Part shown: in pieces, positions 2,301 to 58,605 of the stretch
Numbering within the stretch: position 1 is the stretch's first letter
Layout: each line of letters starts with the position of its first letter
DNA from: Isoetes taiwanensis
Lineage: Eukaryota; Streptophyta; Lycopodiopsida; Isoetales; Isoetaceae
Length of the DNA: 64,000 nucleotides
Assembly (NCBI GenBank): GCA_021234155.1
Contig: JAJEKV010000027.1
Coordinates: 8,044,873-8,108,872, forward strand
Direction of reading: 5' to 3'
Notes under the pieces: model-generated
Told to the model about the DNA's origin: nothing
Database searches by the model: none
Seen by the model: the letters and a program-made list of their open reading frames with translations, nothing else
Made by a program: the position numbers and the translations under genes

Positions 2301-3514
2301 TGTGTATTAAAAGTAACATAACTTAAGATTTCAAACTCCGATTCAAGTGATTTCTAGTCTGATAGGAAGATATCGTTGTACCTAGTTACGGTCATTTCCA
2401 TCAAACCTATCCCAAAAACAGGGGCATTTTCATAATTTTGCATAAATATAGGGGTATTTTTATAATTTTTCCTTATTTTTAACATCCACGGGGAGCTCAC
2501 GAAGATTATGGGAGAAAACACACCCAGATGTGGCTCATCCCCACTACAGTACATGGCTGAAGTGGGTCCTTCACTACGAACATTACAATGATCATGGTCA
2601 CCTTCACAACGAAGCGTCGAACCCGTGACCCTGGGCATGGCAGTTTAGAGGCATGGTGACATAGGCGATTACTCCTAAGATCATTCGTTTAGTGAAAGAT
2701 AAAGAAGTAGAGAAAAAGGAGAAGCATTTATAATGTCCAACTGTTCTATGAGACGTGCACATCACACGAACATTGCTCTATTACTACGCATTTAGATGCG
2801 ACCATCCTTTTTCTTCTTCATAATATAAGGGCACAAGTTAACTTTACCCTTAATTCGTGGATTCTGGAGCAAAAGTCTTCTGGCAGGTGGTACCTCCCCC
2901 CCTTTCCCCCAACAACTGTTGTTTACTCAGTCCTTCGTTATCCATATTTCGTTTTGGTACAATGTTCTGGCTTCCACGTCGTATACTTGCGGACGAGATT
3001 GCGGCATGATGCATCTGATTTTTGGGATATCGTCCATTGCGTTCTGGAGCACGACTATTCCACCATGTTACAACACACTCTAGAACTCTAGTATGGGAAA
3101 CAATGCTTTAGGATCACATAGGATCATCCCTGCCATGTTAGGCCTAGATGATAGTACCCAACGCACCATCGCCATCGTCAAAAACCACCATGAATCCAAG
3201 CCATCGGGCCCAACACCGGAGTCTTGAGTGCAACACTGCGATCCGTTGCACTGGGAATTATACAGGCGAAACTAACCCCTGGTATCCCTCGGATGAGGCG
3301 CCAGAGCATAGAGAACCGTGTCCAAATGGCGAGGCAGTACAATATATGTCTTAGGACCGTATACTGTGCTGGAACGTCACAGATACATCTTATTAACTCC
3401 TAAGACCTTCAATTAGATAGCACTATTAGATGGATAGATAAATTATTTTTAGGCAAATTATAAAAATACCGCTGTATTTATGCAAAATTATGAAAATGCC
3501 CCTGTTTTTGGGAT
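2301..3514. mobile_element. TIR element copy C
   Basis: The left arm starts near 2320 and is shortened next to GTTGTACC. It runs through GGTCATTTCCATC at about 2389 into the same interior as copy A. The right arm (about 3455-3512) is inverted relative to the left and contains AATGCCCCTGTTTTTGGGAT. Around 2265-2325 the right arm of B and the left arm of C meet as a large imperfect palindrome. The element abuts a different repeat at about 3517. Confidence 0.6.
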
Positions 3515-42035: not shown

Positions 42036-44358
42036 GCATGAAACAATCGCGGAATCCTCATTGAGGAACAATGATCAAAGAGAATATACCACGAGCCAAT
42101 CATCAACACATGGACCATCTGAACAAGCCATTAGGCGGCCTATTAGGAATGAAATACAGGATTATTTGAGAGCACCTTATCTATCAGCAACAGAAGCGGC
42201 ATGGAGAACAATGTCATATGAAATAACAAATAAGTGTCCTGCTGTCAAATGCCTACCTTTACATCTTCCACATCCTAACACGAGGTCATTGCTAGATCGA
42301 TATTTCTTACGTCCTCTAGACCTCGAGTTTGATACCTTCACATATATTCAATACTATGAACAATACACCTTGACCGTATACAATTTAGCATTGGCAAGTG
42401 AATCTGGAAGCCATGTGGAACAAGAGCGGGAGGGGTTCACGAGGAATATAGTGAAGAGAAGGGTCAGGCAACCAATTGTATGTAGGATACGATTGCTATT
42501 GCCTCGTGTGGGAGAAGCATTCTACTTGAGACAATTTCTTTTACATCGCCCTGTGAGGACATGGGATCAGTTGAAAATTATCAATGAACAACAATATGAA
42601 ACGTACCAGCAAGCTGCAGAGGTAGAAGGATTACTCGCAGCACATAATAAAGCAGTGTTAGTCATGGAAGAAGCCATATCCTTATCATTGAGTCCCACGC
42701 AACTACGGTTTCTTTTTGCCATGCTACTGCTTGATCAAGATCCAGCAATTGAGCTATGGACTAGATTCAAAATACAGATGAGTGTGGATTTACTAGATGA
42801 ATATCCAAATGATGATATGACCGCGTTCAATGAATCAATTCATTTAATCAACAATATTCTGACACAACACAATACTAGCATCACGGCATTTGGTCTCCAA
42901 TTACATCCTCGTCTTGGAAGAAATGTCATCCACGAATTACAAAAATTTTCCGACCATTGAAGATATTTAGATACCGTGATGCAGATGATGAGCCTAATGA
43001 ATAATGACCAACAAAAGATATACGACTTCATTCGTGAATGGTTAGAATCATGAGAAAGCACCCAACCGTTATTCATCGATGGAAAAGCCGGTAGGGAAAA
43101 GACATTCCTACTGAATTGCGTATGCCTGTCTGTACGAGGCAACCAAGGTATAGTCCTCCCATGTGGTACAACAGCATTAGCAGCTCTCCAATATCTAGGA
43201 CGAACGACCCACTCATTGTTCCAAATCTCTGTGGAAGAAAACAATTCGGGGTTACACTCAATGATAGAACATGATTCTGGTATAGCAGAATTGCTCATTG
43301 CAGCTAAGGTCATTATTTGGGATGAATTCCCAATGGCCAATAAAGCTGTCATGGAAAGTGCCCATCATCTGTTGCAATGATTGTGCGGGAACAGTCATCC
43401 GTTCGGTGGCAAACACTTCATCGCCTCTGGAGATTTTAGACAGGTAGCCCCTGTTGTCAAGGGAGGAGGGAGAAATGCAACATATAATGCATCTATAAAA
43501 TCCTCGACACTTTGGCAAAGTTTTCGTGTGTTTAGATTAGAATAACCAATATGCAATGCGCGAGATCCTGAATTAATGCTATTTGTTGATCGTATAGGAG
43601 AGAATTGGGAAGAATCCACAATCTTACTGGATATCTTCAACACAACTACGAGCGTAGAAAATAGTGTTGAGTTTCTCTATCCTTCTAGCATCCTTCAAGA
43701 CTCAGCACTATGCAAAAAACGTAACTTTCTATCTCCAATCAACAAGAGCATTGATAATATAAATGGCCACGTTCTTAATAGACTTTGTACTTATGACAAA
43801 TCATATTATAGCCATGATCACATCACCGAACAAGATGAGATTATACATGACCATCCTTATGCGACATCAGATTTCTTAAATAACTTCACTCATTCTGGAA
43901 TACCTAATCACGAACTAAAGCTTAAAGTAGGCGCTATATGTCACATTATGAAATGATTAGACATGGAAAAAGGTCTAGTAAAAAATGCAAGAGTTATGGT
44001 CGTTTCGATGCACGCAAAATTCGTGATGGTAAAAGTATTAGATGATACAACTCAAGAGGATGCATGCACATACCCAATCTCTAGAACCGACTTCTTTTAT
44101 TAACTAGAGAACCGGCCCTGGACCATACATAGACGACAGTTACCCCTACGATTATCCTACTCAATTACCTTCAACAGCTGTCAAGGATTAACATTGGATC
44201 GTGTAGTTATCGACTTACGTACCGATGTATTTGCACACGGCCAATTATACACTGTGCTTAGTCGCATGCGGACAAAAGAAGATGCACTCATCTTACTTTC
44301 ACCAGAAAACACTATGAAGCATACTAAGAACATGGTTTATAAAGAGTTGCTATGTTGA
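41965..44358 (+). pseudogene. Helitron Pif1-like helicase region
   Basis: One frame throughout. It starts RNEIQDYLRAPYLSATEAAW and passes FYLRQFLLHRPVRTWDQL to the helicase motifs. Motif I is FIDGKAGREKTFL, where the usual G-x-G-K-T has E before K. Motif II is IIWDEFPM, then GDFRQVAPVV, and the C-terminal NSCQGLTLDRVVIDL and LYTVLSRMRTKEDAL. Stops interrupt at about 42958, 43051, 43378, 43543, 43954 and 44101. The TGA ones probably arose from CGA arginine codons. The helicase unwinds donor DNA during rolling-circle transposition. This copy cannot work. Confidence 0.88.
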
Positions 44359-44650
44359 TAATGTATGCTTTCCCTCAATCTTTTTTTTTGTACAGGTCTC
44401 GTAAGAAAATGATAAGAATTAAACTTGGAATAAGGTACACACTCTCCAACTTTTACAATTATCGCATCCACGTTTCTTTGACCATTCCTTGCAGGTGCAC
44501 ATGACTTCTCCAGCATTCATCTGCAAATGACATTATCACATACAAAAATTTGGAGTTGTTCATATAAGGTACGTTAAAAAAAAAAAGAAGGGTCGTACGA
44601 TAGATGACGTGCTATTCAATTACCATGGGATTCCCCTTACGCATCTTTGA
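44359..44650. other. Helitron 3' flank
   Basis: A T-rich stretch and no clear CTRR terminus with preceding hairpin could be fixed. A GA-rich microsatellite follows at 44648-44697. Confidence 0.35.
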
Positions 44651-44720
44651 GAGAGAAAGAGATAGAGTGAGAGTGAGAGGGAGAGAGAGAAAGAGAATCA
44701 ACACCCGAAACAATAATCAT

Positions 44721-45747
44721 CGCGGTGGCAGCCTAGTGTTCAAGCTATTGGTAATGGGCGACCCCCATCCAGGCCTAAAACCCATTGACTATCATCAGGA
44801 TGCACAAAAAGGGGGGATGGAGGGAGAGAGAGAGGAAAGGGTAATGGAGAATAATGAAAGGAATGTTCATCGCGGTGACAGCCTAGTGGTGAAGCCATTG
44901 GTAATGGGCGATCCCCACCCAGGCCCAAAACCCACTGACTCTCATCGGATGCATATAAAAGAAAAGGAAAAATATGTGGGAGGGGGGGGTTATTAAGAAG
45001 AACATTCATTTTGGGAAGGGACTCGCAAAGGACACAAAACCGGCCGTTCATCACAACAACAGTATACAATGTTTGAAGAATAGAGAGGGGTAGCCGACCA
45101 TAGGAACAATATCGGGCTACCCCGGCAACAAAAGAAATGTGCGCAGGCAGTATAGAAGGGTAATGGCGACAACTTCTTATCGGGATAAAAAACCTCGCCC
45201 TTTCGGGTTTTCGAGGAAAACCCTAATGAGAAATGGTCGCCAGCAACCTTGAATGTGTTGCCTGGAGAACCGAAGGAGATGGGTCGATGGCGAAACCAAA
45301 AAAAGCAGGACCTCTGAAGATGGCATAAAACCTGCAAGCAACACAAAGAACTCTAAAAAACACCCGTGACTGGTTAGAGAAAAATCAAAGAGCAGCACCC
45401 AATAGGGTGGAGAACAACATCACACAACGGGTGGAGAACAATTATGTAAAAAGAAATATGCTACACATGGATGGTCAAAACTGAACAAAAACAATAGACG
45501 AACTCGAAATAACATATAAGGGCGGGTAGGGTGGGAAGCAACGGACAAGGAAAGAGATGCTGCTGTGAGAAGACGCCGATAACGAGCCACAAGAAGGACG
45601 AGCACATATATAGCTGCTCGTCCCTTCCCAGAATAACGATCCGAGGGTTCAGATCGATGCTATCGCGGTGACATTCTAGTGGCAAAGCCATTGGTAATGG
45701 GCGATCCCCACCCAGGCCCAAAACCCACTGACTGTCATCGGATGCTG
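44721..45747 (+). repeat. Three copies of an 85-bp SINE-like repeat
   Basis: 44721-44805, 44871-44953 and 45664-45747 share CGCGGTGACAGCCTAGTGG, TGGTAATGGGCGATCCCCAC and CCAGGCCCAAAACCCACTGA. GCCTAGTGGT resembles an A-box and GGGCGATCCCC a weak B-box of RNA polymerase III promoters, suggesting a tRNA-derived SINE head. The boxes are closer together than in a tRNA, so the assignment is tentative. GA-rich spacers separate copies 1 and 2. Confidence 0.5.
45174..45235 (+). repeat. Dispersed 60-70-bp motif with CGGGATTAAAAAACCCC core
   Basis: CTTATCGGGATAAAAAACCT followed by CGCCCTTTCGGGTTTTCGAGG is shared with 58769-58838 (plus) and 21151-21217 (minus). Flanks here differ, so the motif can travel without the rest of the larger repeat. 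Confidence 0.7.
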
Positions 45748-48497
45748 GAAACAAAAAAAGATGGGACATACTATAGTGGGAATCCCATGGTGTTCAACTC
45801 CTGCATGTTTTCAAACTATCTATCTAAATAGATACATCGAGTAGTCTTGGTAATTCTATAAAATTTGGCAAACATTCTACTACCAATTATGTAGATGAGG
45901 GTTCTTATTGTTGAATAAGATGACAAAGAATGTAATTGTAGTATAAATAAGGTAGAATATGAAGTAGGTTTGGCATGAAAAATGTCACATGGCCATTCAC
46001 TTTCGTTCAGAAACCACGTTCGTTATAGTCAAAGAATCCTAGAATATGATGGAATTCTGGTGTGCTTTTTTAGACTTCTTACATCATTTTCGAATTAACA
46101 CAGAAATTACATAAAGATTCTAACATTTATTTTGAAAAGTAGATGGTTCATATTTGTGCTCTACATATGACCCCACACTCCCGCACCATGTAAGAGAACA
46201 TGCACAACCAACACTCGAAACAAATGTGCTTAGTGAGAAGGCAAGATTTCTAACACATCTTTGTCTCTTTCAACTGCTAGAGCTGAAACATTTGGGTTAA
46301 AAGGGACATGGTGCCACTACTTCGCCAAGCAGATGATAAAATTGTGGCTTGTAATAGGGACTAAAAATTAACGTGTATAAGTCTTTAATTTCATCAGTAG
46401 TATTTGCCAACTTTATATGTTGTCTTTTATATTTTGATCAAGAGAAGCATGCTTCCTATCTTTTTGTTTTTCTTTCTTCTTCTTCTTTTTTTTTTCCCCT
46501 TTTTTTGTCTTTCTTTGTCTTCTATTAGGTATGAATGGACATAAAACATTTTGCATTAATTTCAAAAAGCAAATAGGCTATATGTCGCTCCATTCGCGCC
46601 TCTGCAAATAGTACAAAGATTCTAGCATTTATTTTAAAAAGTAAATGTTTCATATCTGTGTCTTGGTAATACGACACTTGCTTTTTTTGGATAGTATGTG
46701 TATCCTCTTGGATTGAAAGGTGTGGCTACATCTCTTTTGCGCATAGATAAGACCCTTGATGTCGCACTTATGAGAGGACGAAAAATATTGGCAAAGGTGT
46801 TGAATATTGCAGTAAATTGTTATTGCGCCTAACTTTTCTTTTAGCTGCATATCAATCTAAGAAAGTGGGGTCTATGTAAGATAGAAAAATAGAAATTTTA
46901 ACATCCAAGAAAGGGAGTCTATTCAACTAAAGTGCGAATTGACGTTATGCATTCTCGCTGTTCAATTAGATATTTTTTGCTCTACTAGCATGTTAATATA
47001 AAGAGCAACAAATGACATTATGCCATTTTGTAACTATGCCCTTTTTTATTTCGTCATGGACATGTGGTCCATGGTAGACAAGGACCAATCATAGAACGAT
47101 GGATGCCACTTAATCTTTGACTTTGACACTTGGGCAATTTCCACAACGCAATAAAAAAAACAATGTCCATAATGCAATAAACATTATTTATTTTATTGTA
47201 ATAGAAAGTAAATTAAAGTAATACAAAATAAACATTTACTTTATAATAAAAATTTATCAAAGTGGCCAAGACCATCGCGAACATTTCTCTTTATCAAACA
47301 TTGTGTTCAATCAACATTGTATTTAAAGAAATGTAAGTTTTGAGAGGATGCTTAATTGAAGGGATGGAGTAATATAAATTAGTATATGGACTAGACTCAT
47401 GAACAAATAAAAAAGTGGGTTACCATTGACTTGCTTGTCTACCTACATGGTTGTCCAGAAAGAGAAATACAACGGCCGCAAATATTTTCCTATGCCAATT
47501 TGCTTATTGGTTACAACCAGTAGAATTGAACTCACTAAACATTTTTTTTTTCCAAGAAAGATTCGAATGGCATCTTTCGAATAAGATCACAAATTCCATG
47601 AACAACCACAACTAAAAAAATTCACTTTTTTTTTATTGTCTGTGGGTGCTCTCGCGCAAGCTTATGGATCCTCTAAGGTTTTTCACCAACAGGGCTCTCA
47701 TTTGGTTCATTTCCATCCTAAACACACGTTGCTTCGACACTCTCCTTCTCACTCATTCAACTTCAATCGCCAGTCAAACATTCCTCTAGGATGTTTTTAA
47801 TAGTATTGGACAATGAAACTTGAAGATCATAGACATTTCTTCTACGTGCTTTTCCATTTCAGCTGCACAAAAGAATGCACCATTCTCTATTCTGAGAACA
47901 TTCTCTAATGTATTATCAATCAATGCTCTCGCAGCCACAGCGGAGCTACTTTCTAGCAATTTCCTTTCTTCATCCAAGCAACTCCTTCCACGAGCTTCCC
48001 TATAAAAATTCATGGCAATGATAATGGCAATGGCAAAAAGATTCACGACTTGTTACCTGATCTCCTCCATCGGTCATGACTTTGGAGCTTAACAATCGAG
48101 TTTAATTCTGCTATTAATCGACATTTGAAGGTGGTCAATGTTTGATGCTATATTAGTGCATCTTTTTAAAATATTATCACATCCTTTTTTAAAAGTTGTG
48201 TTGGCCATTCAAAAAGTAGAAGGTTTGGCTATTTTTTATTGCACAATATCTAGCATAATAACTAGGGGTTATTTTTATAGTTGTATATGTTTTTTGGCAT
48301 GGTTTTCCTATTATTTTAGTGTTGTATTTATTGGGGCATATTAAATAGTATTTCTAGAGTGTGTCACCTTTGGAGCATTGATTTAAATTAGCTTAAACAA
48401 TCTAACCCCACATTCTTAATGGTTTTTGCCCTATTTTTTGCATGGACTCTTTTCCCTTATCCATCTCAATGGCCAGATTGACTCTGACTTCTTAATC
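45748..48497. other. Intergenic, no gene recognised
   Basis: AT-rich. It contains a repeated word pair near 46116 and 46617 (GATTCTAACATTTATTTTGA type), a T-rich tract at 46460-46520, a LINE-tail-like fragment near 46531, and a decayed relative of the 12687 hairpin near 47262. The frames at 47786-48046 are not recognised. Confidence 0.4.
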
Positions 48498-48718: not shown

Positions 48719-49586
48719 ATAGGACACATTCCTCTAGATGGCGATTGCAGACAACTTGAGTCCTATTACTTGCTTGAAGTCGGATGCGTATGTGTATATT
48801 TTAAAGACAATCCTTTCTCTGAATTTCAGGGTTTCTAAAACCCTAAGTTGTGCAGTTTCATGCCATTCTTTCTGCCCATTCATGAGACTTAGGTTTATGA
48901 TGCAATATTCTTGAGGATCTATTGGCAGGTGTATGCGTTAGATAATTTCATATTTATTTTGAAATATTTGGAAAGGCTTGGAGAAACCTCGAAGAAGTCG
49001 ATCCCAGAATAGCAAGAACATATTTATCTGGAAAGCCCCGCAAGGCTTTGAGTCACTCTGATTTGCAGCAGAATTGATCTGGGCAAGAGGAGTGTAACCT
49101 CTTGACCTCTTGAGAAGGTGACAGCTATCAGAGCCTATTGAAAACAGCTTTTTTCTATAAGACTACCGCAACTTCAGAGGAAGAAGTTGCACTTTTGGCA
49201 TTATGGTGAGTTCATGAGTGCCTTAGCTGATAAAAAGACCTCAATGTCTCTTCTATTTGATCCTTTAGGCCTTTGCTAGTTGCACGTACTGTCCTAAATC
49301 TTCTTCTTGTAGTGCTATGAATTCTTTTCTGTCCTGTGTTGGACATTCTGTTCTGTGAACATCCTCTGTTTGCAATGCCAGTTATGACCTGTATGTGAAA
49401 ATCTTCCTCTCTTTGAGTTGCTATAGATGGTCAGAGGAATATAAAAGCAACTGCACGCAACCTTGCCTTTGAGTTGCCACAGATGGTCAGGGGACGCAAA
49501 AGCAATTGCAGGCAACCTTGCCGTAAGAGATAAAGTGTCTACAATTTCTACTGGATGCGCCCAATTTGCTTTTAACAAGATTGCGT
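48719..49586. other. Left flank of the ParB-methyltransferase element, with a 56-bp tandem duplication
   Basis: 49411-49466 and 49467-49521 are two diverged units starting CTTTGAGTTGCYAYAGATGG and ending GCAACCTTGC. No gene is recognised; a GTGAGT donor-like site at 49204 follows a short frame (TTATSEEEVALLALW) of unknown origin. Confidence 0.5.
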
Positions 49587-49640
49587 ATTAAACGGGAGCA
49601 AATCATCGAAACGAGAGCAAAAGGAATATTCCTTTAAGAT
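49587..49640 (+). repeat. Left terminal inverted repeat
   Basis: ATTAAACGGGAG at 49587-49598, then AAACGAGAG, then the 16-bp palindrome AAAGGAATATTCCTTT at 49620-49635. The first and last blocks match the right end in inverted order. A poly-T and poly-A stretch follows inward. Confidence 0.6.
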
Positions 49641-49960
49641 TCCCTTTTTTTTTTTTACAAAAAAGGGGTAAAACGAGGAAAAAAAAGGGTTGCATGAAAT
49701 TCTATTTTGATCCCCCTCCCCCCCTCCCCCAAATGACTAGTTTTTTTGTGCAACAAAAGAATTGACTTTTTTAAAGTGACACTTTTCTTAGCAAATAGAA
49801 TGTTCTTGAAGTATGTTTTTAGAGAGAAACTCTAATTTCAGAGGATAAAATATTTAACAAAAAATTGAAGTAAAGTCTGTAACTGAAACTGTAGTATTCT
49901 TAAAATTTGAAGATAAAATCTTCATATTCACATGCAAAATTTACAGTCTTTTTCTAAGAC

Positions 49961-52186
49961 TCAGTTATGTACAAAAGTGTGAGGAGTGATGAAGGAGGGA
50001 TCCAGGACGTCATCATATTCATTTATGCCATCCTCATCACCTTCACTTTTTTCACTGTCACTCGAGGAAGTGCTTGAGTTGTCTTTCTCATCACTATCAA
50101 CAGATGGTGAAGCATTGCCACCACCACTCCCTTCTTCATCCTCTTCCTCATAACTACAAGCCTTTTTAAGCAAATTGATAGTTCTCTGGCACAGACGATT
50201 GTCAGGTTTCAATTTGAAATCATAGCACAATATAGTCACATCACTTTAAGTTCAGCTCATCCCTACAACCCACTTTCTTGGACTTCCTCCCTTTTCTTTG
50301 ACTTCTCATTTCTAACTCTACCTACCTTCAAAAGCATTTTCTGAACGTGTCGCAAGCCAGTGAATCGTGAGTTTAGTTACTAAGCCTTCCTCCTTGACTG
50401 TATCAAGAACTTTTGCTACCGAAAAAGGTTGACCTTTGTCATCTTCCTCAGTTGGAAGAGCAATCAACATACCTTTGACAATTTTTGTGATATTGCCTTG
50501 AGGCTCATTCCTACGTCTTGGTCCGAGGTACATGCTCGGTCCTCGTCTTCCTCTGGTGCTAATGTAGCATTGCTTGGACCTGCCTGGTTCTGGGGTTGAT
50601 GGAAGGTATCAGGCCATTGAAACGGTTCTTGCAACTGTCTTAGAGCTAGGTTGTCCAAGACATCTTTCTGTTCAAGAAAGAAATTTCTCCACCACATCTG
50701 ATCTTCTTCTGAGAAGTACTTAAAGCCTGAGGTAATGCCATTTCCAATGGCTTTTAAGGATGTCAATAAGGTACTTTTCTTCTGCACGTTAGGAGAAATA
50801 TGCTTTTCTTCTGTCAATGACTCCTTAGGATTTTTGAGAGGAAGTTGCTCAGCACGTTCTATGAAGCAATGGTCTGGAACAAATTTAAGGAAGTGCAATC
50901 CCTCTGGTGGACTCCAATCCTTAATTGTGGTGTACTTCTTCCCCGGTAAGAAGCTTTGTCCATCCTTCAAGTAGAACTTGATGTGATGTTGAAAGGTAAG
51001 ATCATTCAACTTGTTCACAACTAGTTCTCTATCTGAACGTTGAGGAAAAACAAACTCTCTAAAGTCAGCAGTCTCTTTAAGAAGCTCGACCACTGGAATA
51101 GGAGTGTAAGAATCTTCAATGATTCGAACTAAAGTAGGAAGACAAAAAGCTTCTTCCTTCTAAGGCGCACAGAAAATCTGCTGAACATCTGGTCAATCTG
51201 ATCATGTGTGTGCCCTACAAGTAAAAATCCGAGCTTTACTTTTCTGAAGATCCTTAGCCCCACTAGCATAGCACAATAAGCAAAGAGTGTTTGATTCTTG
51301 TTCTCTCTTGTAGTGTTGTCAAGTTGCAGGTAGAGCACTGGTGGTAGTTGCTCTTGCTCGGACAGGACCTTGTTAAGAATTGTAATTGTCAGGTTCGGGT
51401 CACCATGAAGTTTGGATACGTCAAAAATACTTTGCACTTTAGACTTCCTTTGAAGACCATGGCTCCTACAAGGTGGACTTTAACAAAACATTCCTCTGGC
51501 ACATCTTTGGAATATTTAGGAAATGGGGTAGAGTTGTCTTTTTTCTATCCATTCCATCAATTACAATAGACATATATTGCAGTGGACATTCGAGAGCTTT
51601 TTTTCTGTGTTTTGGCGAGCTTTCTTCTCTTTGCTGCTTGTTGTTCATGATGTCTGGCAAGATTCTGTTGCACGATATCTGTAAAAGAAATCAGGTTAAA
51701 ATATTTTCTTTAAAACAAGTGAGAGATTGGAGGACTTGAGCTTACTTCTTTCGACCTCTGTCTTTGCAGTTTCTCGTTGACTTTTTAATTCTGCACACCT
51801 TGAGCAAACAAACACTCTATGTCTCCTTGGAATTTTCACAAGGCCAAATTCACTTTTTCATAGTCTAGTGAAGTGTGAGTAAGGGATGTGCTGAAACTGA
51901 ATGCAAGTCTCTTTGTATTCTTTGAAGACCTCTTTTTTGTAATATTGTCTGTCAAATGATACATGTTGCTATTAGGCAACTTCTCACATGTCTCTCTAAA
52001 ATATTTCCCCATCCATGTCACAGCAGCCAGGGCATGCATGGTTACAACTCTTCTTGGACCACAGTGATTATCAATTGCTGGGTTTTTATCCAGTCTTTTG
52101 TGTATTCGAGACATTCTTGTGGACCCTAAATGGTGGACAACCATAAAGCTATTTTTGACAGACTTGTTCATGAAGCGGTTCGTCAT
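49961..52186 (-). pseudogene. Transposase-like protein (DUF7869-type), decayed
   Basis: From 52186 leftward the reading gives a helical N-terminal part (RRVVTMHALAAVTWMGKYF) and a KKEVFKEYKE segment. Next comes a likely zinc site (RRHRVFVCSRCAELKSQR), then an intron (51745-51679, GT-AG). After it come IVIDGMDRKKTTLPHF, VLYLQLDNTTRENKNQTLF and VGHTHDQIDQMFSRFSVRL. The D in IDGMD, the D in QLDN and the D/Q of HTHDQIDQ are candidate RNase-H-like catalytic residues (inference). A C-terminal segment (GMLIALPTEEDDKGQPFSVA) resembles a BAH/chromo-like fold, and the end is acidic and serine-rich. The order matches proteins I recall annotated DUF7869 in algae and corals; a search is needed. At least three frameshifts break it. 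Confidence 0.6.
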
Positions 52187-52299
52187 CGTAACAACTGCAA
52201 ATTAGTGTAGAGATTTGAGAAACTTTCTCTAATGCAGAACTTTTCTTATTCCCAAATACGGTACAAGTAGAAGTTCCTGTAATGATTAAGTGAAAGGAA

Positions 52300-52902
52300 A
52301 ACTAAAAGCTATTCTGGAATACACTGGAGTAGGACACTAAGGCTAAACGTATTCCATTTCACATAGAATACGAGCAAGACGAAAGGGTTACCTGTAAAAG
52401 GAAATTTTGGCGCCCTCACTTCCGTATTCCAGTCTCTGAGTTCTAGTCGCCAACGCCAGCGCCTTCAATATTAAATTCAGAGACTGTATTCTGATTTGCA
52501 TAGAGAAGACATGGACAAATGAGTGTAAAAAGTACAATGTACTTTCATTTTCAAATCTGTTGCTTATTCCAGAATAGAATTTGGTTGATCAAAGGAGCCA
52601 AAGTGTATTCCGGAATACACTTTGGCTCCTGTGGGTAAGCCAAAGTGTATTCCGGAATACACATTCGGTGTTGTTTTGTAGGCAAGTTGTAATTTTGAGA
52701 AAAATTTGCCTGCTTTTTGCTCTAAGGAGCATGTTTTTCAACACATTTTAGACGACAAAAAACCCCTAAATGCATTGAAATTGTTGTGGAAAAGTCTTAA
52801 ATTTGTTCTATTTAAGAACCAAAATTCTGTTTTTTTATTCCAGAATAAGTTTTTATCTTCGTTTCGTCTTCTAATTTTGGTTTTAACAAAAACATTTTAC
52901 AG
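52300..52902. promoter_or_regulatory. Divergent intergenic and leader region rich in GTATTCCGGAATAC palindromes
   Basis: This lies between the leftward and rightward genes. It holds TATTCTGGAATAC (52310-52322), half sites at 52349 and 52423, TATTCCAGAATA (52565-52576), a 38-bp perfect palindrome (52593-52630), an 18-bp copy (52645-52662) and TTATTCCAGAATAA (52835-52848). The last part (to 52902) is probably an intron, because an acceptor ATTTTACAG precedes the first coding exon at 52903. Placement between divergent genes suggests control of both. Confidence 0.6.
52593..52630. promoter_or_regulatory. 38-bp perfect palindrome
   Basis: The left arm AGGAGCCAAAGTGTATTCC is followed directly by its exact complement in reverse. 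It is the longest member of the GTATTCCGGAATAC family, and a second 18-bp copy lies 14 bp downstream. A perfect palindrome of this length in a decayed element indicates recent origin, gene conversion or constraint. Confidence 0.9.
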
Positions 52903-54263
52903 GCAAGAAGGTAGCAATAAAACTTCACGCAAGACGATAAAGCTGAAATCAAAACCACACCCACAGGCTAGGGTTCAGGACACAGATGAACCTGCTGTGT
53001 ACGAAAATTTTCAGACACAGTGGTTCATAACAAGGGGAACTGGAAGAAAGTACAGCACACTCACTTTCCTCCATGTCTGCGGAAGTCCGGGAGGCAAGCG
53101 CTACGATGACTCGGAGTTTAAGTGCATGGGAGTCATCGAAGAAATTTCAGAAATCGCGGGTCAGTCTGGACAACAGGGAAGGCTATCTTTTAAGACCTCC
53201 CAAGGATTTATAGTTGTGGACCAGACCTATTTCAGACTTGGTAGAGTGGCACCTCCAGCTTTGCACAAGTACATGACACATTACATAAATAAGCTGAGGT
53301 TGTCGGAAATTATAAAAAGAGTTCAATCCACTCAAAGCGAGGATTTTGCTTGCAGTGAATCTGAAGATGAAATAGTGGAGGAGGAGAGGTAAGAAGATGC
53401 CTCCAGTCAGGAAGAACGGGACGAAAGTCCCAGTACATCAGAAGAACATCAGAGGATGAGCCAGTTACAAGGCACTGTTGCAGCTAAGGAACCTAAAAAA
53501 CGCAAAGTGCAAGAGATTATGGTGCAGGAAATTCCAGAAGAACATCCAAAGAAAAAGAAGGGAAAGGGTAAGGCACCAGGGGTGGCCATCAAGGAAAAGA
53601 AGGTGGACAAGACCTCAGAGCGGATGGAAGAAATAAATTTGCACAAATATGTGCAAGGAGTAATTTATTTGCCAGTAACTTCCATGAGGTTGCCACCAAA
53701 AAATGAAGCTGGTGACCGCCCTCTTTAGGTTCGGAAGATTTACGCTGACCACTTAAGGAACCTAAAGACAGAATCAGGAGCAACTCCAATGCCCACGTTG
53801 CACCGACTGTCGTTATCGTGGACAGATCCCAGTGCATGGACCCCAAGGACTACGACAGAGAAAATGCAGACACTTACATACATTATGTTCTAGGTGGAAC
53901 CACAGTTTTAAAGCAAGGAGGCAGTTGTACAAGGAGAAACATAACCCGAGATATCTCTCTGTCCTCTGTGCTATTTACTGTGGCCTGACAGACGAAGAAG
54001 CGAAGATCGTTGCCAACACACACAATGCTGACAACGAGTATAAACTTAAAATGAGCTTCGTCGACAAGATCAGGTTTATGCATAGGGAGTTTGTAATATT
54101 TAAAGAAAAATATGGAGAAGATCTAAAAAAACCAGCAAACTCTTTAGAGCTGAAGGAAGCGTGTGCTGTCGAGTGTTGTCTCAAGTACGACGAGGCTAAC
54201 AAACGACAGTCTCTGATAGCACACGACAACTGGTTTCAACTAGCCTTCAGAGACGGCAGAGTA

Positions 54264-54296
54264 AGTATTTTTTGTATTCCAGAATAACCGTACAGT
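54264..54296. promoter_or_regulatory. Palindrome site in intron 54261-54327
   Basis: GTATTCCAGAATA at 54274-54286 in the 67-bp intron. It is one base from the consensus centre (CA for CG). Confidence 0.6.
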
Positions 54297-54663
54297 CCTC
54301 CCACTAACCACGTTTATATCTGTGCAGATTTGGGACCTATAAAATGAAATTTTTACCATGTTCGAGCGTGGAGAATTGAAAAGCAACGGAAAGGTCTCCG
54401 AAAAGAAAAAGGCTCCGACGTTCCGAAGAAAGAGATGACAATAACCGTCTGGAGAGAAATGCAGGGCTTCACAGACATGGACTTACTCGAAAGGCTACTG
54501 CAGAAGGTTGTGGACAAAGAATTTACTCTAGAAGAAATGTCCAAGTTGCTGCACAAGTAAGACAGAACGCCATTTGCTTTTCTTCTCTGCAATTATAACA
54601 GGACGTCATATTTATAAAATTAAGAAAATGCTTCGTGGCACGTTTTATTACCAATCCACAAAC

Positions 54664-54840
54664 GTATTTCGGAATATGCCTCTTCCTCTGTTTGCGGCTA
54701 GTTTGTTTTCCGAAGTATACATTTCTCTAAGCTGAAGCTAAAGTGTATTCTGGAATACACTTTAGCTGCTAAAAAAGCAAAACGTATTCCGGAATACACT
54801 AGTGCCTAGTCTAAAAATGATCCCGTATTCCGGAATAGGA
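54664..54840. promoter_or_regulatory. Cluster of four palindrome sites in intron 54557-54963
   Basis: GTATTTCGGAATAT (54664-54677); a 32-bp near-perfect palindrome (54736-54767) whose only defect is TG in place of the central CG, as CpG deamination would give; GTATTCCGGAATAC (54784-54797); and GTATTCCGGAATAG (54825-54838). The exons on either side contain none. Confidence 0.75.
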
Positions 54841-55607
54841 TTGTGCTTTGACGTGTAGGCAACAGTTGCCTCTGTTTACCACTTGTAGTGTTCTAAAGTG
54901 TTTCCTTCTTATTGATGCCTTCTAGTTAGTTGTCTTTCTTCTGATGTTGTAGTTATTTTTCAGCCAAAAAAACGTCATCACATGTCAAACATGTTTGATG
55001 GAACAATTGAATGTTGACAGCTGGGAAAGATGTAAAGAACTCTATCCTATCGCAACCTCGGATGAAAGGATCATCCAATATGCACCAAAATTTGAAGGCT
55101 GGGTATGTTGAATTATTTTCTACGTTTTCATTTTTCTTGTTACAGAGACGTTCTTTCTTGCAGAGCAAAAAGAAAAACAAGGACCTGCCGGAGGGCTTCA
55201 TGCACTTGGTCAGGACAATACGGGAGGAGAGAACATTAGCGAACAGGCGTGTTTTGGATAATGAGCCCTCCGATTACGAACGTTTTACCATGTTCGATCA
55301 AAACAACCTGTTTTGTATAGTACACGGTGACTGCACGAAATTGTTCGATCAAGCCCCAAGATTTCACCTTAGCAATAGCTGACCTGCCATATGGCTTCAA
55401 GCTTAAGGACAACCGCTACGATGACCAGCATTTAAAAACTCTGAGTTTAATGCTTTCGTCGACGGCATTAAGAAAATTACCACGACGAAACATTGGAGGC
55501 TAGTTGTTTTTCACTCAAGCATGCAATCCGGACTTGTGGAAGCCACCTTCAAGAATCACTTTGGTTACCAGTGCAAGCTGGATATGAAAACCTGGTCTGG
55601 TAAGTAC

Positions 55608-55714
55608 TTATTCGGGAATACAAATGTCTCTTTGTTTTCTTTATGTACTTTTTCTTTTAGTTAAATATGCTAGCATTTTCACATTCTTGTTAGGAGTTTC
55701 TATTCCGAAATACG
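55608..55714. promoter_or_regulatory. Two degenerate palindrome sites in intron 55600-55762
   Basis: TATTCGGGAATAC (55609-55621) and TATTCCGAAATACG (55701-55714) each differ from the consensus by one or two bases. Confidence 0.5.
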
Positions 55715-56726
55715 TTTCTTTCGGTACAAGTTAACTCGTATGTTATTTTTCTTGTTCCTTAGGTACAAAACAAATATTAATTACCATGGTGGACGACCGA
55801 GACTGCTAAGTAAGGTGAATATCTCCATGTCGCTTACTGGAGTTTCGACAGAAAGCGTATAATGGAACATTTTAACACAGCAGCGTGCCAGAATTTCTCG
55901 AACGTATTGGAGTTCCCAGTGGTATTGCAGAAGCTGCAGGACCCTAGTGCACAAGGGAGAATAGTGAATCATTACCAGAAGCCACAAAAGTTGATTAACC
56001 ATCTTCTAGACATGTTCTCACGACCATGAGATTGGGTGCTCGATGCATTTTCTGGCTTGCTTGTGCAATTAGGAAGGGCCGTAATTGTGTAGCCATTGAC
56101 ATTGATAAGGAGGCTGTGAACTTCATCAAGATGAGACTGTCTGCCTTACCAACTCTACCAGACGAGAATCAAGAGTTGGGCGCCAAGTCTTCATCTGATT
56201 TTGCCAAGATGACATCTTCGGAGATACAACCTCCATTTACAAGCTCCTTGGATGACGAAGCTACTTTTGTAGAGTTGAAAGAAGTAGCTCTAGCTACAAT
56301 ACCGGAAGCAACTAGCAACACAGAGAAGCCTAAGTCACCGGAAAAAGATGAAACGACAGAATCTGACAAAGCTGAGACGAGCATGAAAAATGAAGAAGAC
56401 TATGCTTTAAATCTGTGACTTGTCTTATGCTATAGTTATTGATTGACATTGATTATTGCCATTATTGATGTAACACAAAAACTGTAAAGAAATTATTATT
56501 ATTATTTCTACTAAATTTGTGTTATTTCTACATCCACCTTCATAAAATTGCGTACTCATGTCTGAATTTTGCCATTTTTATGTGATTCACTCTACAAAAC
56601 CAAGGTCGTGTCCAAAAGGGACCCCAAAAATAGGCAAAAAAAAAAAATTGATACTCCTGAAATTTTAAACTTCTATTAAAAAAGTCCAATTTTGAAAGAG
56701 ACGTGCTTTTTTTAAAGGAATCTTTG

Positions 56727-56756
56727 AAACGGGAGTGCTGCAACACTCCCGTTTAA
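56727..56756 (-). repeat. Right terminal inverted repeat with hairpin
   Basis: AAACGGGAGTG (56727-56737) and CACTCCCGTTT (56744-56754) form an 11-bp perfect stem with a 6-base loop. The outer arm continues to AAT and is the inverse of the left end ATTAAACGGGAG. AAAGGAATC inward matches the inner block of the left end. Confidence 0.65.
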
Positions 56757-57011
56757 TTTGCAACCTTGTTTTTTGCCAAGGAGTCATCGTTGCATAATGA
56801 TCCTTCTTATTGCAGGTACATATCTCGCAACACAAACTATATGCCATACTACATAGGCCACATTGCAGGTAGGCATGTATCCGAGGTACAATATCAGTAA
56901 AAGGACTTTGATTCCAATATGCATCCCATGGACTTTAATTCCAGTATGTACCAATATGATGTGAAATGGACAGAGAAAGCAACTAATGATTCATCATAGC
57001 TTTTTTTTTTT
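56757..57011. other. Spacer between two insertions
   Basis: It includes two similar words (GGACTTTGATTCCAATATG and GGACTTTAATTCCAGTATG) near 56903 and 56930. It ends with AATGATTCATCATAGC and a T run, which is the left side of the site also seen intact at 48498. Confidence 0.5.
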
Positions 57012-58605
57012 AGCACGTTTGCACAAACGAGGGTGGAGACTTTGGAGCGATTTGAAGGCATCCACGTTGCAGCCAGCTGGGATTATTGTGCACGTGGAAA
57101 GCCTTATAGTCGTTAGATTTGATCTAAGGTGGAGAAAAATGATGGAAATTCCAGCATGTCCACCATTGGGAAGTTATTCCGGCGTGGGGAAGCTATGGCG
57201 GGGCAGAGTTTTTGCAGAAACAAGAAGAAGAGTTTTTGCAGAGTTATGGCGGGGCTTACAAGAAGCATTGGCAGGGGGACGTGCTATTGGCGAAATTGAT
57301 TTTGACATAATTTTTACAAGCCGGCTGGTTCGGTCGAAGCAAACTGCTCTCATCGCAATGACTCAGGTTTGCCTTTCATATTTAAGTACTTGAAAGTCTT
57401 CAAAGTGGACTTTTCGTCTAGGGCATACTAGTTACATTTATCCTCGAGGTGATAATGAGCTAGGAAGGGACATTGTTGTAGTGGTGCTCCAAAGCCTCTA
57501 TTTCTTTGTTTACATTACTGGGATCTTTGGTTATAGTGCTCTTGTATTCTTCTCTTTGGAAAGCAGAGTAAATTCAAGCGAGTTCCAGTTCTTATCCGAG
57601 GTGGTTTTTATGGGAAAGGAAAAGCTGGTGACGACAATCGGTTGAAGCTACGAGAAGCTACAGCTCGAGCCTTGGAACATGCTTCATGCCAAATGGTTCC
57701 TGTATATGCAGATCCTGCTCTTAATGAGCGCAGTTACGGTGATTTGCAGGTCTGTTATTGAAGTGGTTTGACAATTTCTTTTCTAAGGGAGTAGTTCAAA
57801 TATCCTCTAGAAAATTTTCTTCTTACCGAATGTGAATTGCATCTGGAGAGAGCTATCTATGGCAACATAACATAGAAGTCGATTACATATAATATTGGGT
57901 GGTTAACAGTAGAGCCTCTGTCCATTTATAAAGATTACTATTTTTAAGAACCTGTCTTTTATAAACATCATACACTTGAAAGCATGGACTATCATGTTTT
58001 CGCCAACTGAACTGACTCTAATAATAATCATTTTGGAACTTAAAGATGCGCTTTAATATTTACCCTGAAGTTGGCTATATGTAGTACTGAAGATAGTAAA
58101 ATAGCAGCATAGTCCACAAATTACATGACATGGTTTGAAGGTCTAGCGCGTGGTTTAGTAATGTAGTAGTGTAATGCCGCCTTTGCATGGGTGATTGAAG
58201 GTTGAACATGAGTTTTGAGTAGAGCATTTTATCAAAATGAAGCTGATGGAAGTTTTATTCATACATTATCCCATTTAGCAATCTTTGTTATTATGGCTAG
58301 TTTCATCGTATTTTGGCATTGGATTATTTAATCGAGTAAAACAATACATGCAGGGATTGAGCAAGGAGGTGGCAATACAGGAATTTGGAGCTGCCACAGT
58401 GACGAAATGGCGCAGGAGCTTTGATACAAGGCCGCCAAATGGAGAGAGCTTGCAGGTATTGAGGCTTTCATGAACTGCAATTTTAATGAAAATCAAGGAC
58501 TATTGCCCTTTCAAGTTCAAACAAAAATATATTTTGATAATTTTTCCCTTTTAACTGATACCCCAGTTCTACATTCTTGCACTGGGACTCGCATGAAACG
58601 AACAA

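Follow-up and report, generated by a model that had tools for sequence, protein, structure and literature searches.

The 64-kb stretch of Isoetes taiwanensis DNA analysed here (the window) carries at positions 49574-56770 a degenerate copy of a DNA transposon that is 7.2 kb long, ends in inverted repeats, and is flanked by a 4-bp target duplication. The element holds two divergent genes that are arranged head-to-head: a transposase-type gene with a DUF7869 domain on the minus strand, and a gene for a ParB-like protein fused to a DNA methyltransferase on the plus strand. Non-coding DNA of the element contains arrays of a palindrome, GTATTCCGGAATAC, and related element lineages carry arrays of other palindromes in its place. 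An initial annotation of this region had proposed a ParB-like/methyltransferase fusion gene at 52903-56418. That span does correspond to the methyltransferase gene, but it misses the transposase gene and the ends of the element.

The window copy of the fusion gene is itself dead; open copies are present elsewhere in the genome. Window frames taken alone reach no Pfam cut-off (best methyltransferase-type matches, E 0.024 and 0.22) because stops and frame breaks split the exons of this degenerate copy. Among phage profiles, only a DNA methyltransferase family is weakly matched, by the last window exon (phrog_67, E 0.002). In the open copy L018, five modelled exons separated by GT-AG introns encode 943 amino acids (aa) without a stop, and the joined exons match PF01555 (N6_N4_Mtase) with an E value of 9e-18 (65.5 bits, cut-off 26.7). 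The same protein matches phrog_67 (E 5.2e-27), and its last exon matches CcrM, MboIIA, and RsrI in a sequence search of the Protein Data Bank (PDB). The methyltransferase identity is far beyond chance.

Beta-class methyltransferases carry motif IV (D/S-x-P-Y), the target region, motif X, and motif I in that order. This order is found here, with DLPYG in exon E5 followed by YQKP..WVLDAFSGSGTT in exon E6. In the window, the D-L-P-Y-G loop, YQKP, VLDAFSG, and GRNCVAIDIDKEAV are present in the sequence in which the initial annotation had listed them, split over frames and exons. Its beta-class assignment, the introns in the gene, and the carriage of the gene by a plant DNA transposon were likewise borne out by the open copies. 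Capture from a phage was not: a tblastn search with the L018 protein yielded 22 matching phage records, and the 15 listed are only 23-36% identical over 9-26% of the protein.

No copy yielded a start codon or first exon, and E1 begins behind a splice acceptor in seven aligned copies. Therefore, the true protein must be longer than the 943-aa model. The first ~130 modelled residues (YEN..QTQW..TRG..KY.TLTFL; window 52903-53390; E1 of L008, L009, L010, L012, and L018) are conserved without a Pfam match and represent a possible reader or chromatin domain. Profile matches to RFX and Tas3 (E 0.02-0.3) were dismissed as chance.

The ParB-like block, with the end GLTDEEAKIVANTHNADN that had been pointed out previously, lies in the window frame 53766-54287. 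Its matches to phage profiles are weak (for a sister lineage, phrog_1033, "ParB-like partition protein," E 0.001, and phrog_6392 and phrog_723, E 0.012), as is a match to DUF6551 (E 0.014-0.11). Thus, the methyltransferase half of the proposed fusion is secure, and the ParB half is tentative. The hexamer PKKRKV, which had been read as a nuclear signal, is indeed present at 53492-53509, and L008 and L009 carry it as well. However, the corresponding residues are PKKRKA in L007 and L010, PKKRKT in L011 and L012, and PKKRVL in L018, and an exact SV40-type signal was consequently rejected as a conserved feature. Judging from these variants, the stretch is best described as a basic, nuclear-signal-like patch rather than a fixed signal.

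Comparisons among copies indicate strong purifying selection, because the protein is well kept while silent sites are saturated. The ratio (w) of nonsynonymous (dN) to synonymous (dS) divergence is 0.01-0.33 in the eight of 37 pairs with a computable dS. For the other 29 pairs dS is undefined, which we took as saturation, and dN is 0.03-0.19. The ParB core is 0.82-0.99 identical in amino acid sequence among eight copies; dS is undefined in 22 of its 28 pairs (dN 0.03-0.14), and the remaining six give w values of 0.05-0.33, the two highest of which come from near-identical pairs. For exon E6, w is 0.04 and 0.01 in two of three pairs and undefined in the third, and for exon E5 dS is undefined in all six pairs (dN 0.12-0.19).

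The element ends in the window were placed by alignment to six 10-kb copies of the same genome. Perfect 4-bp target duplications flank all seven copies in which both ends were seen (window, TTTT; L008, TTGG; L009, CTCA; L010, ATTG; L011, TTAA; L012, TGTT; L019, ATCC), and also L042-L045. For the other copies, the fetched flank of L007 did not reveal a left end, only the right end of L018 and neither end of L021 was seen, and L020 was unscanned. Lengths reach from 7.2 kb (window) up to 9.7 kb (L009), and L019 measures 4.1 kb. The left end of the window lineage occurs 981 times genome-wide with no more than two mismatches (513 + 468; reversed control, 0). A first look at the genome gave 9907 candidates for DUF7869, 1444 for PF01555, and 2950 for the ParB-like exon, with 150 scored for each. 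The genome also gave four matches to the LEAFY SAM domain, compared with none in 14 control genomes, as befits a plant. Sola DNA transposons have terminal inverted repeats and 4-bp target duplications (PMC10741241). Both features are present in this element, which is probably Sola1-like by analogy, given its 4-bp duplications and opposite-strand accessory gene (PMC10741241, PMC12477816).

The DUF7869 domain (PF25273) is matched with an E value of 1.6e-39 by window positions 51132-51479 and of 1.5e-43 in L008. We call its gene transposase-type because of its position, its abundance, and conserved acidic blocks seen by eye; structure prediction of this part gave a low-confidence model only. When L011 and L012 are aligned with L008, the methyltransferase half (introns included) is 76-78% alike and the transposase half 87-92%, which may reflect exchange between copies or different evolutionary rates.

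Ten matches to GTATTCCGGAATAC with no more than two mismatches, three of them exact, occur in the window. All lie in the element and none in an identified exon, with exon limits for this purpose read by eye. The arrays sit between both genes and in the introns of the methyltransferase gene. Each of the six fetched 10-kb copies has 12-17 matches, and none of the 14 sites in L018 falls in a modelled exon; the fragment L020 has no site. Three sequences were compared with 20 first-order random sequences each, and not one of these random sequences contained a match. Genome-wide, the exact word occurs 3720 times per strand and its reversed-word control 0 times.

We sampled 20 two-kb motif places from the start of the list, leaving out C1, C23, C50, and several that adjoin places chosen before. 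Nineteen match the element outside the masked motif, some over 200-400 bases only, and one (L040) does not. A check that is independent of the motif used listed exact left ends on contigs C1-C46, and for 10 of 11 an exact palindrome lies no more than 7 kb away in the direction of the element. Nine of these left ends have one within 4.6 kb, and the end on C1 has one only at about 13 kb (compared by eye). At C21:15000-20700, two left ends (L031 and L032) stand directly after GGAATA at the edge of another copy's palindrome array. They seem to be copies inserted into the palindromes of earlier copies, or one such insertion duplicated in tandem.

Table 1. Features of the transposon copy in the window
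Feature	Position	Strand	Basis or remark
Left target-site duplication, TTTT	49570..49573		Same 4 bases as those after the right end
Left terminal inverted repeat	49574..49598	+	Differs at 2 positions from the 25-bp end as typed from further copies
Transposase-type gene with DUF7869 (PF25273), degenerate, in separate frames	50464..52201	-	Profile match and frames
Intergenic palindrome cluster, GTATTCCGGAATAC	52309..52660		Exact sites at 52605 and 52647; a site with 2 mismatches at 52309
Exon E1 (broken frame), with the conserved N-terminal region, the PKKRKV-containing basic patch, and the ParB-like domain	52903..54260	+	Homologous to open E1 of L008, L009, L012, L018
Intron, palindrome at 54274 (2 mismatches)	54261..54327	+	Splice sites by eye against L018
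Exon E3	54328..54556	+	Frames, comparison with open copies
Intron, palindromes at 54664, 54745, 54784, 54825	54557..54963	+	Splice sites by eye
Exon E4	54964..55102	+	Comparison with L018
Exon E5: methyltransferase N part, motif IV DLPYG; broken frame	55164..55599	+	Frames, comparison with L018
Intron, palindromes at 55608 and 55700 (2 mismatches each)	55600..55762	+	Splice sites by eye
Exon E6 (broken frame), with the region for target recognition, motifs X and I (the latter VLDAFSG), and the C-terminal tail	55763..56418	+	Frames, comparison with L018
Right terminal inverted repeat	56746..56770	-	2 mismatches to the typed end
Right target-site duplication, TTTT	56771..56774		Matches the left duplication

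Sister lineages carry other palindromes. We inspected 21 further DUF7869 loci, which were chosen non-randomly (L046-L051 by match type; L052-L066 by hand from the first 40 candidate rows). A single palindrome for all DUF7869 elements was rejected, since L046-L051 lack the window palindrome and carry others. The consensus GTATGAATTCATAC (GAATTC core) was found at two loci (L046 and L052), CTATGCGCGCATAG (GCGCGC core) at three (L048, L051, and L060), and GTATAAATTTATAC (AAATTT core) at ten (L047, L049, L050, L054, L056, L057, L058, L059, L064, and L065), and the window word (TCCGGA core) at one (L066). A finder for perfect 12-mer palindromes missed the AAATTT arrays in several loci, and these were detected by a near-palindrome finder. 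Locus L047 (six sites, shuffle maximum 5) was counted solely on the strength of spacings identical to those in its relatives. In the remaining five loci (L053, L055, L061, L062, and L063), the near-palindrome finder gave no clear instance of any of the four words. Other words came up in the oriented 4-kb pieces of two of these. L055 has a 27-bp tandem array at ~3195-3390 with the core GCGCAGCTGCGC, which could be a fifth word or an unrelated minisatellite, and L061 has ACAATTCGAATTTT as its top near-palindrome, irregularly spaced.

All four words share the frame (G/C)TAT......ATA(C/G) and differ in their six-base palindromic cores. Exact genome counts per strand are 1551 for CTATGCGCGCATAG (reversed control, 0), 12556 for GTATAAATTTATAC (17), and 64 for GTATGAATTCATAC (11). 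A chance motif is thus ruled out by the lack of matches in random sequences and by the reversed-word controls of 0, 0, 11, and 17 in the genome. With no more than two mismatches, the TCCGGA and GCGCGC words are absent outside their own lineages in 23 four-kb pieces. In lineages that show both places, sites are found repeatedly in the DNA separating the divergent genes and immediately after the ParB exon. The GCGCGC lineage also has sites between two blocks of the transposase gene and further out. Between lineages, the ParB-methyltransferase is about 40-66% identical in the better-preserved pieces, and motif IV in the form D-[IL]-P-Y is present in all four.

A tree of 27 DUF7869 domains (midpoint root; L012 is a long, frame-shifted row) places the TCCGGA (7 rows), GCGCGC (3), and GAATTC (2) loci in one clade each, with support of 100/99, 100/99, and 98/97, respectively. 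The ten AAATTT loci and the five loci without a clear word fall together in one clade (100/99). At the level of sequence, palindrome type goes with element lineage, and this link is as much a fact as are the gene and the element. Arrays are present in all ten sampled sister loci that have a methyltransferase match. As an independent predictor of arrays, the methyltransferase was nevertheless judged weak, and the five wordless loci, which sit in the AAATTT clade, may be rearranged copies.

The sites are also regularly spaced. Among 214 neighbour spacings of up to 60 bp, 187 fall in three clusters (18 at 19-22, 85 at 28-33, and 84 at 39-44 bp), which lie near 21, 31, and 42 bp, or near two, three, and four helical turns. 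Furthermore, four derivatives of 3.2-4.3 kb that have both ends and 4-bp duplications (TTTA, ATAC, ATTA, and TATA) carry 9, 12, 9, and 8 sites. None of them matches the transposase, and what they retain of the methyltransferase is at most a trace of exon 4, seen in three of the four.

Private palindrome arrays in each branch suggest that these elements recognise and mark themselves. They thereby lend indirect support to the initial annotation, which had suggested that the protein could mark element DNA but made no mention of the arrays. The explanation we favour, with slightly better than even confidence, is that the ParB-like/methyltransferase protein recognises and methylates the palindrome arrays of its own lineage and so marks the element. 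In such a scheme, a nuclear ParB-like/methyltransferase protein would recognise the lineage-private palindrome carried in the element's own non-coding DNA and would methylate it, most likely at an adenine in the common TAT......ATA frame. Such a mark would set the element, along with derivatives poor in genes, apart from other DNA; its most plausible use would be resistance to silencing by the host, or the licensing of transcription or of transposition. As the specificity of the protein drifts, the palindromes of the element would drift along with it, giving separate lineages with separate words. For palindrome binding, methylation, target base, and purpose alike, we infer function from sequence.

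This protein is the most economical candidate for reader and writer for three reasons: it combines a DNA methyltransferase with a part that is likely to bind DNA, similar proteins have already been proposed to mark their own element, and the palindromic six-base cores resemble methyltransferase sites. A common target would be adenine because the only inner bases shared by the four words are TAT......ATA, and a motif IV of the form D-[LI]-P-Y points to adenine rather than cytosine. The catalytic motif of the rotifer enzyme N4CMT is S-P-P-Y (PMC8885841). A more elaborate form of the same idea is tentative, and we hold it to be less than probable: a diversifying self/non-self code in N6-methyladenine (6mA), in which the ParB-methyltransferase of each lineage would read and write one private palindrome, spaced on one helix face, in a plant lineage reported to be without the usual eukaryotic 6mA pathway.

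Several observations weigh against a self-marking methyltransferase. The ParB assignment is weak by sequence: PF02195 is not among the listed Pfam matches of the ParB-like part, a PDB profile search with this part found no ParB, and the AlphaFold model of E1 has low confidence (mean predicted local distance difference test [pLDDT] score, 39.5; 33-81 for blocks of ten residues within the ParB-like part). The GAATTC and AAATTT words are only two positions apart and cross-match, and L055 and L061 have other top words with seven matches each (shuffle maxima, 5 and 4). Related copies supply the spacings, which are therefore not independent, and the 10.5-bp periodicity does not stand out sharply from some other periods: R is 0.61 at 10.5 bp, equal to that at 11 bp and little higher than the 0.54 at 13 bp. 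The four gene-poor derivatives were found through the motif, so the presence of sites in them is ascertained, and L019, which was found via the methyltransferase and has no transposase match, has only four sites. Finally, the tree cannot separate the transposase from the methyltransferase as the partner of the palindromes because both travel together by lineage.

This last point leads to the main rival, in which the DUF7869 transposase binds the palindromes as internal or subterminal repeats for synapsis or for its own regulation, and the methyltransferase is carried along for a different function. We regard this as possible but rather unlikely. Every labelled locus has the palindrome type expected from its place in the transposase tree, arrays are also present in 6 of 11 sampled loci that have the transposase domain but no methyltransferase match, and the first site in the four derivatives is subterminal, only ~0.4 kb from the left end. 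Full copies of the window lineage, on the other hand, have no site within about 1 kb of either end. Their first site is 3.6-3.7 kb from the left end (L008, L010, and L012), and their last is at least 1.1 kb from the right end. Moreover, the sites cluster upstream of and inside the methyltransferase gene, and those of the GCGCGC lineage are scattered across the 8.5 kb that was fetched.

In another reading, which we consider improbable, each lineage acquired sites for host transcription factors or insulators, or else a promoter minisatellite, and no protein of the element reads the arrays. Their location in the divergent promoter region and introns is one where host factors could act, and slippage can spread tandem arrays. 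Yet 19 of the 20 sampled places belong to the element family, and the common TAT......ATA frame, with similar placement and spacing across four cores, would be unexpected for independent host sites. Least probable of all is a methyltransferase that acts broadly and off the palindromes, in general anti-silencing or in a DNA-damage function, with a ParB-like part that nicks or binds non-specifically. The ParB domain of Bacillus cereus Bce_0392, which is fused to an adenine methylase, is reported to nick non-specifically (PMC5512222), but broad action leaves the private, lineage-changing palindromes unexplained. If the element's own ParB-like/methyltransferase protein does methylate them, the transposon would carry its own DNA-methylation identity tag together with matching target arrays, and at least four specificities would have evolved within one genome.

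Other features of the window lie outside the element. Directly downstream, at 56965-57760, there is a histidine-phosphatase-like piece (PF00300, E 0.0024, below the cut-off) that may be an intron-containing host gene. On the plus strand at 43001-44370, visual inspection suggested coding sequence for a helicase-like protein of the Helitron/PIF1 type. A block of ~70 bases, GCGGTG.CAGCCTAGTG...GGGCGA.CCCC, was seen by eye three times (44720-44790, 44850-44930, and 45650-45750) and looks like a short interspersed repeat.

Methylation of the palindromes would constitute a DNA mark other than 5-methylcytosine (5mC) in a land plant, and would provide a set of sequence-specific DNA methyltransferases adapted to nuclei. 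N4-methylcytosine (4mC) was reportedly found in Marchantia sperm in 2025. The initial annotation had taken the fusion to be undescribed in plant transposons. This holds for land plants as far as a literature search of mostly open-access coverage, at the level of titles and listings, found no land-plant ParB-methyltransferase transposon and no palindrome arrays. However, ParB-methyltransferase accessory genes have been described in algal transposons (PMC12477816, citing Iyer 2011 and Petroll 2025). There, too, a ParB-like part and an N6/N4 methyltransferase are joined in one protein (1104 aa in algae), encoded on the strand opposite to the transposase of a large DNA transposon. The same arrangement is found here, with a weak ParB part, and those authors already propose that the protein binds and modifies the element's own DNA (PMC12477816). 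By description, the present case differs in being from a vascular plant and in its 7-10 kb elements, its intron-containing fusion gene, a number of candidate places in the thousands, and palindrome arrays specific to each lineage; the string "palindrom" is absent from the main text of the algal paper. The fusion as transposon cargo is therefore not new, and what looks new is the lineage-specific palindrome arrays in non-coding DNA. With four named words, thousands of sites, and reversed-word controls, the algal self-marking suggestion becomes sharply testable.

Other systems share parts of this arrangement. Bce_0392 of B. cereus has the same fusion of a ParB domain with an adenine methylase, but is bacterial and is reported as a non-specific nickase (PMC5512222). 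N4CMT of bdelloid rotifers is likewise a bacterial-type amino-methyltransferase captured by a eukaryote, but it has a chromodomain, deposits 4mC at transposons, and has SPPY instead of DLPYG/DIPYG, and the excerpt names no ParB domain (PMC8885841). Fungal TET/JBP dioxygenases are also DNA-modification enzymes carried as cargo by diverse DNA transposons; they are 5mC oxidases rather than methyltransferases, and the abstract names no private target arrays (PMC12730594). The closest working analogue, by resemblance of arrangement only, is the anti-silencing protein VANC of the Arabidopsis VANDAL transposons, and the proposed self-recognition system would work in a similar way. VANC is likewise a family of element-encoded proteins; the associated short motifs form tandem arrays upstream and within introns and differ between related families, as they do here (PMC5735166). 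Unlike the activity proposed for the Isoetes protein, that of VANC leads to a loss of 5mC; the excerpt names no methyltransferase domain for it, and its motifs, YAGTATTAY and AGTTGTCC, are non-palindromic (PMC5735166).

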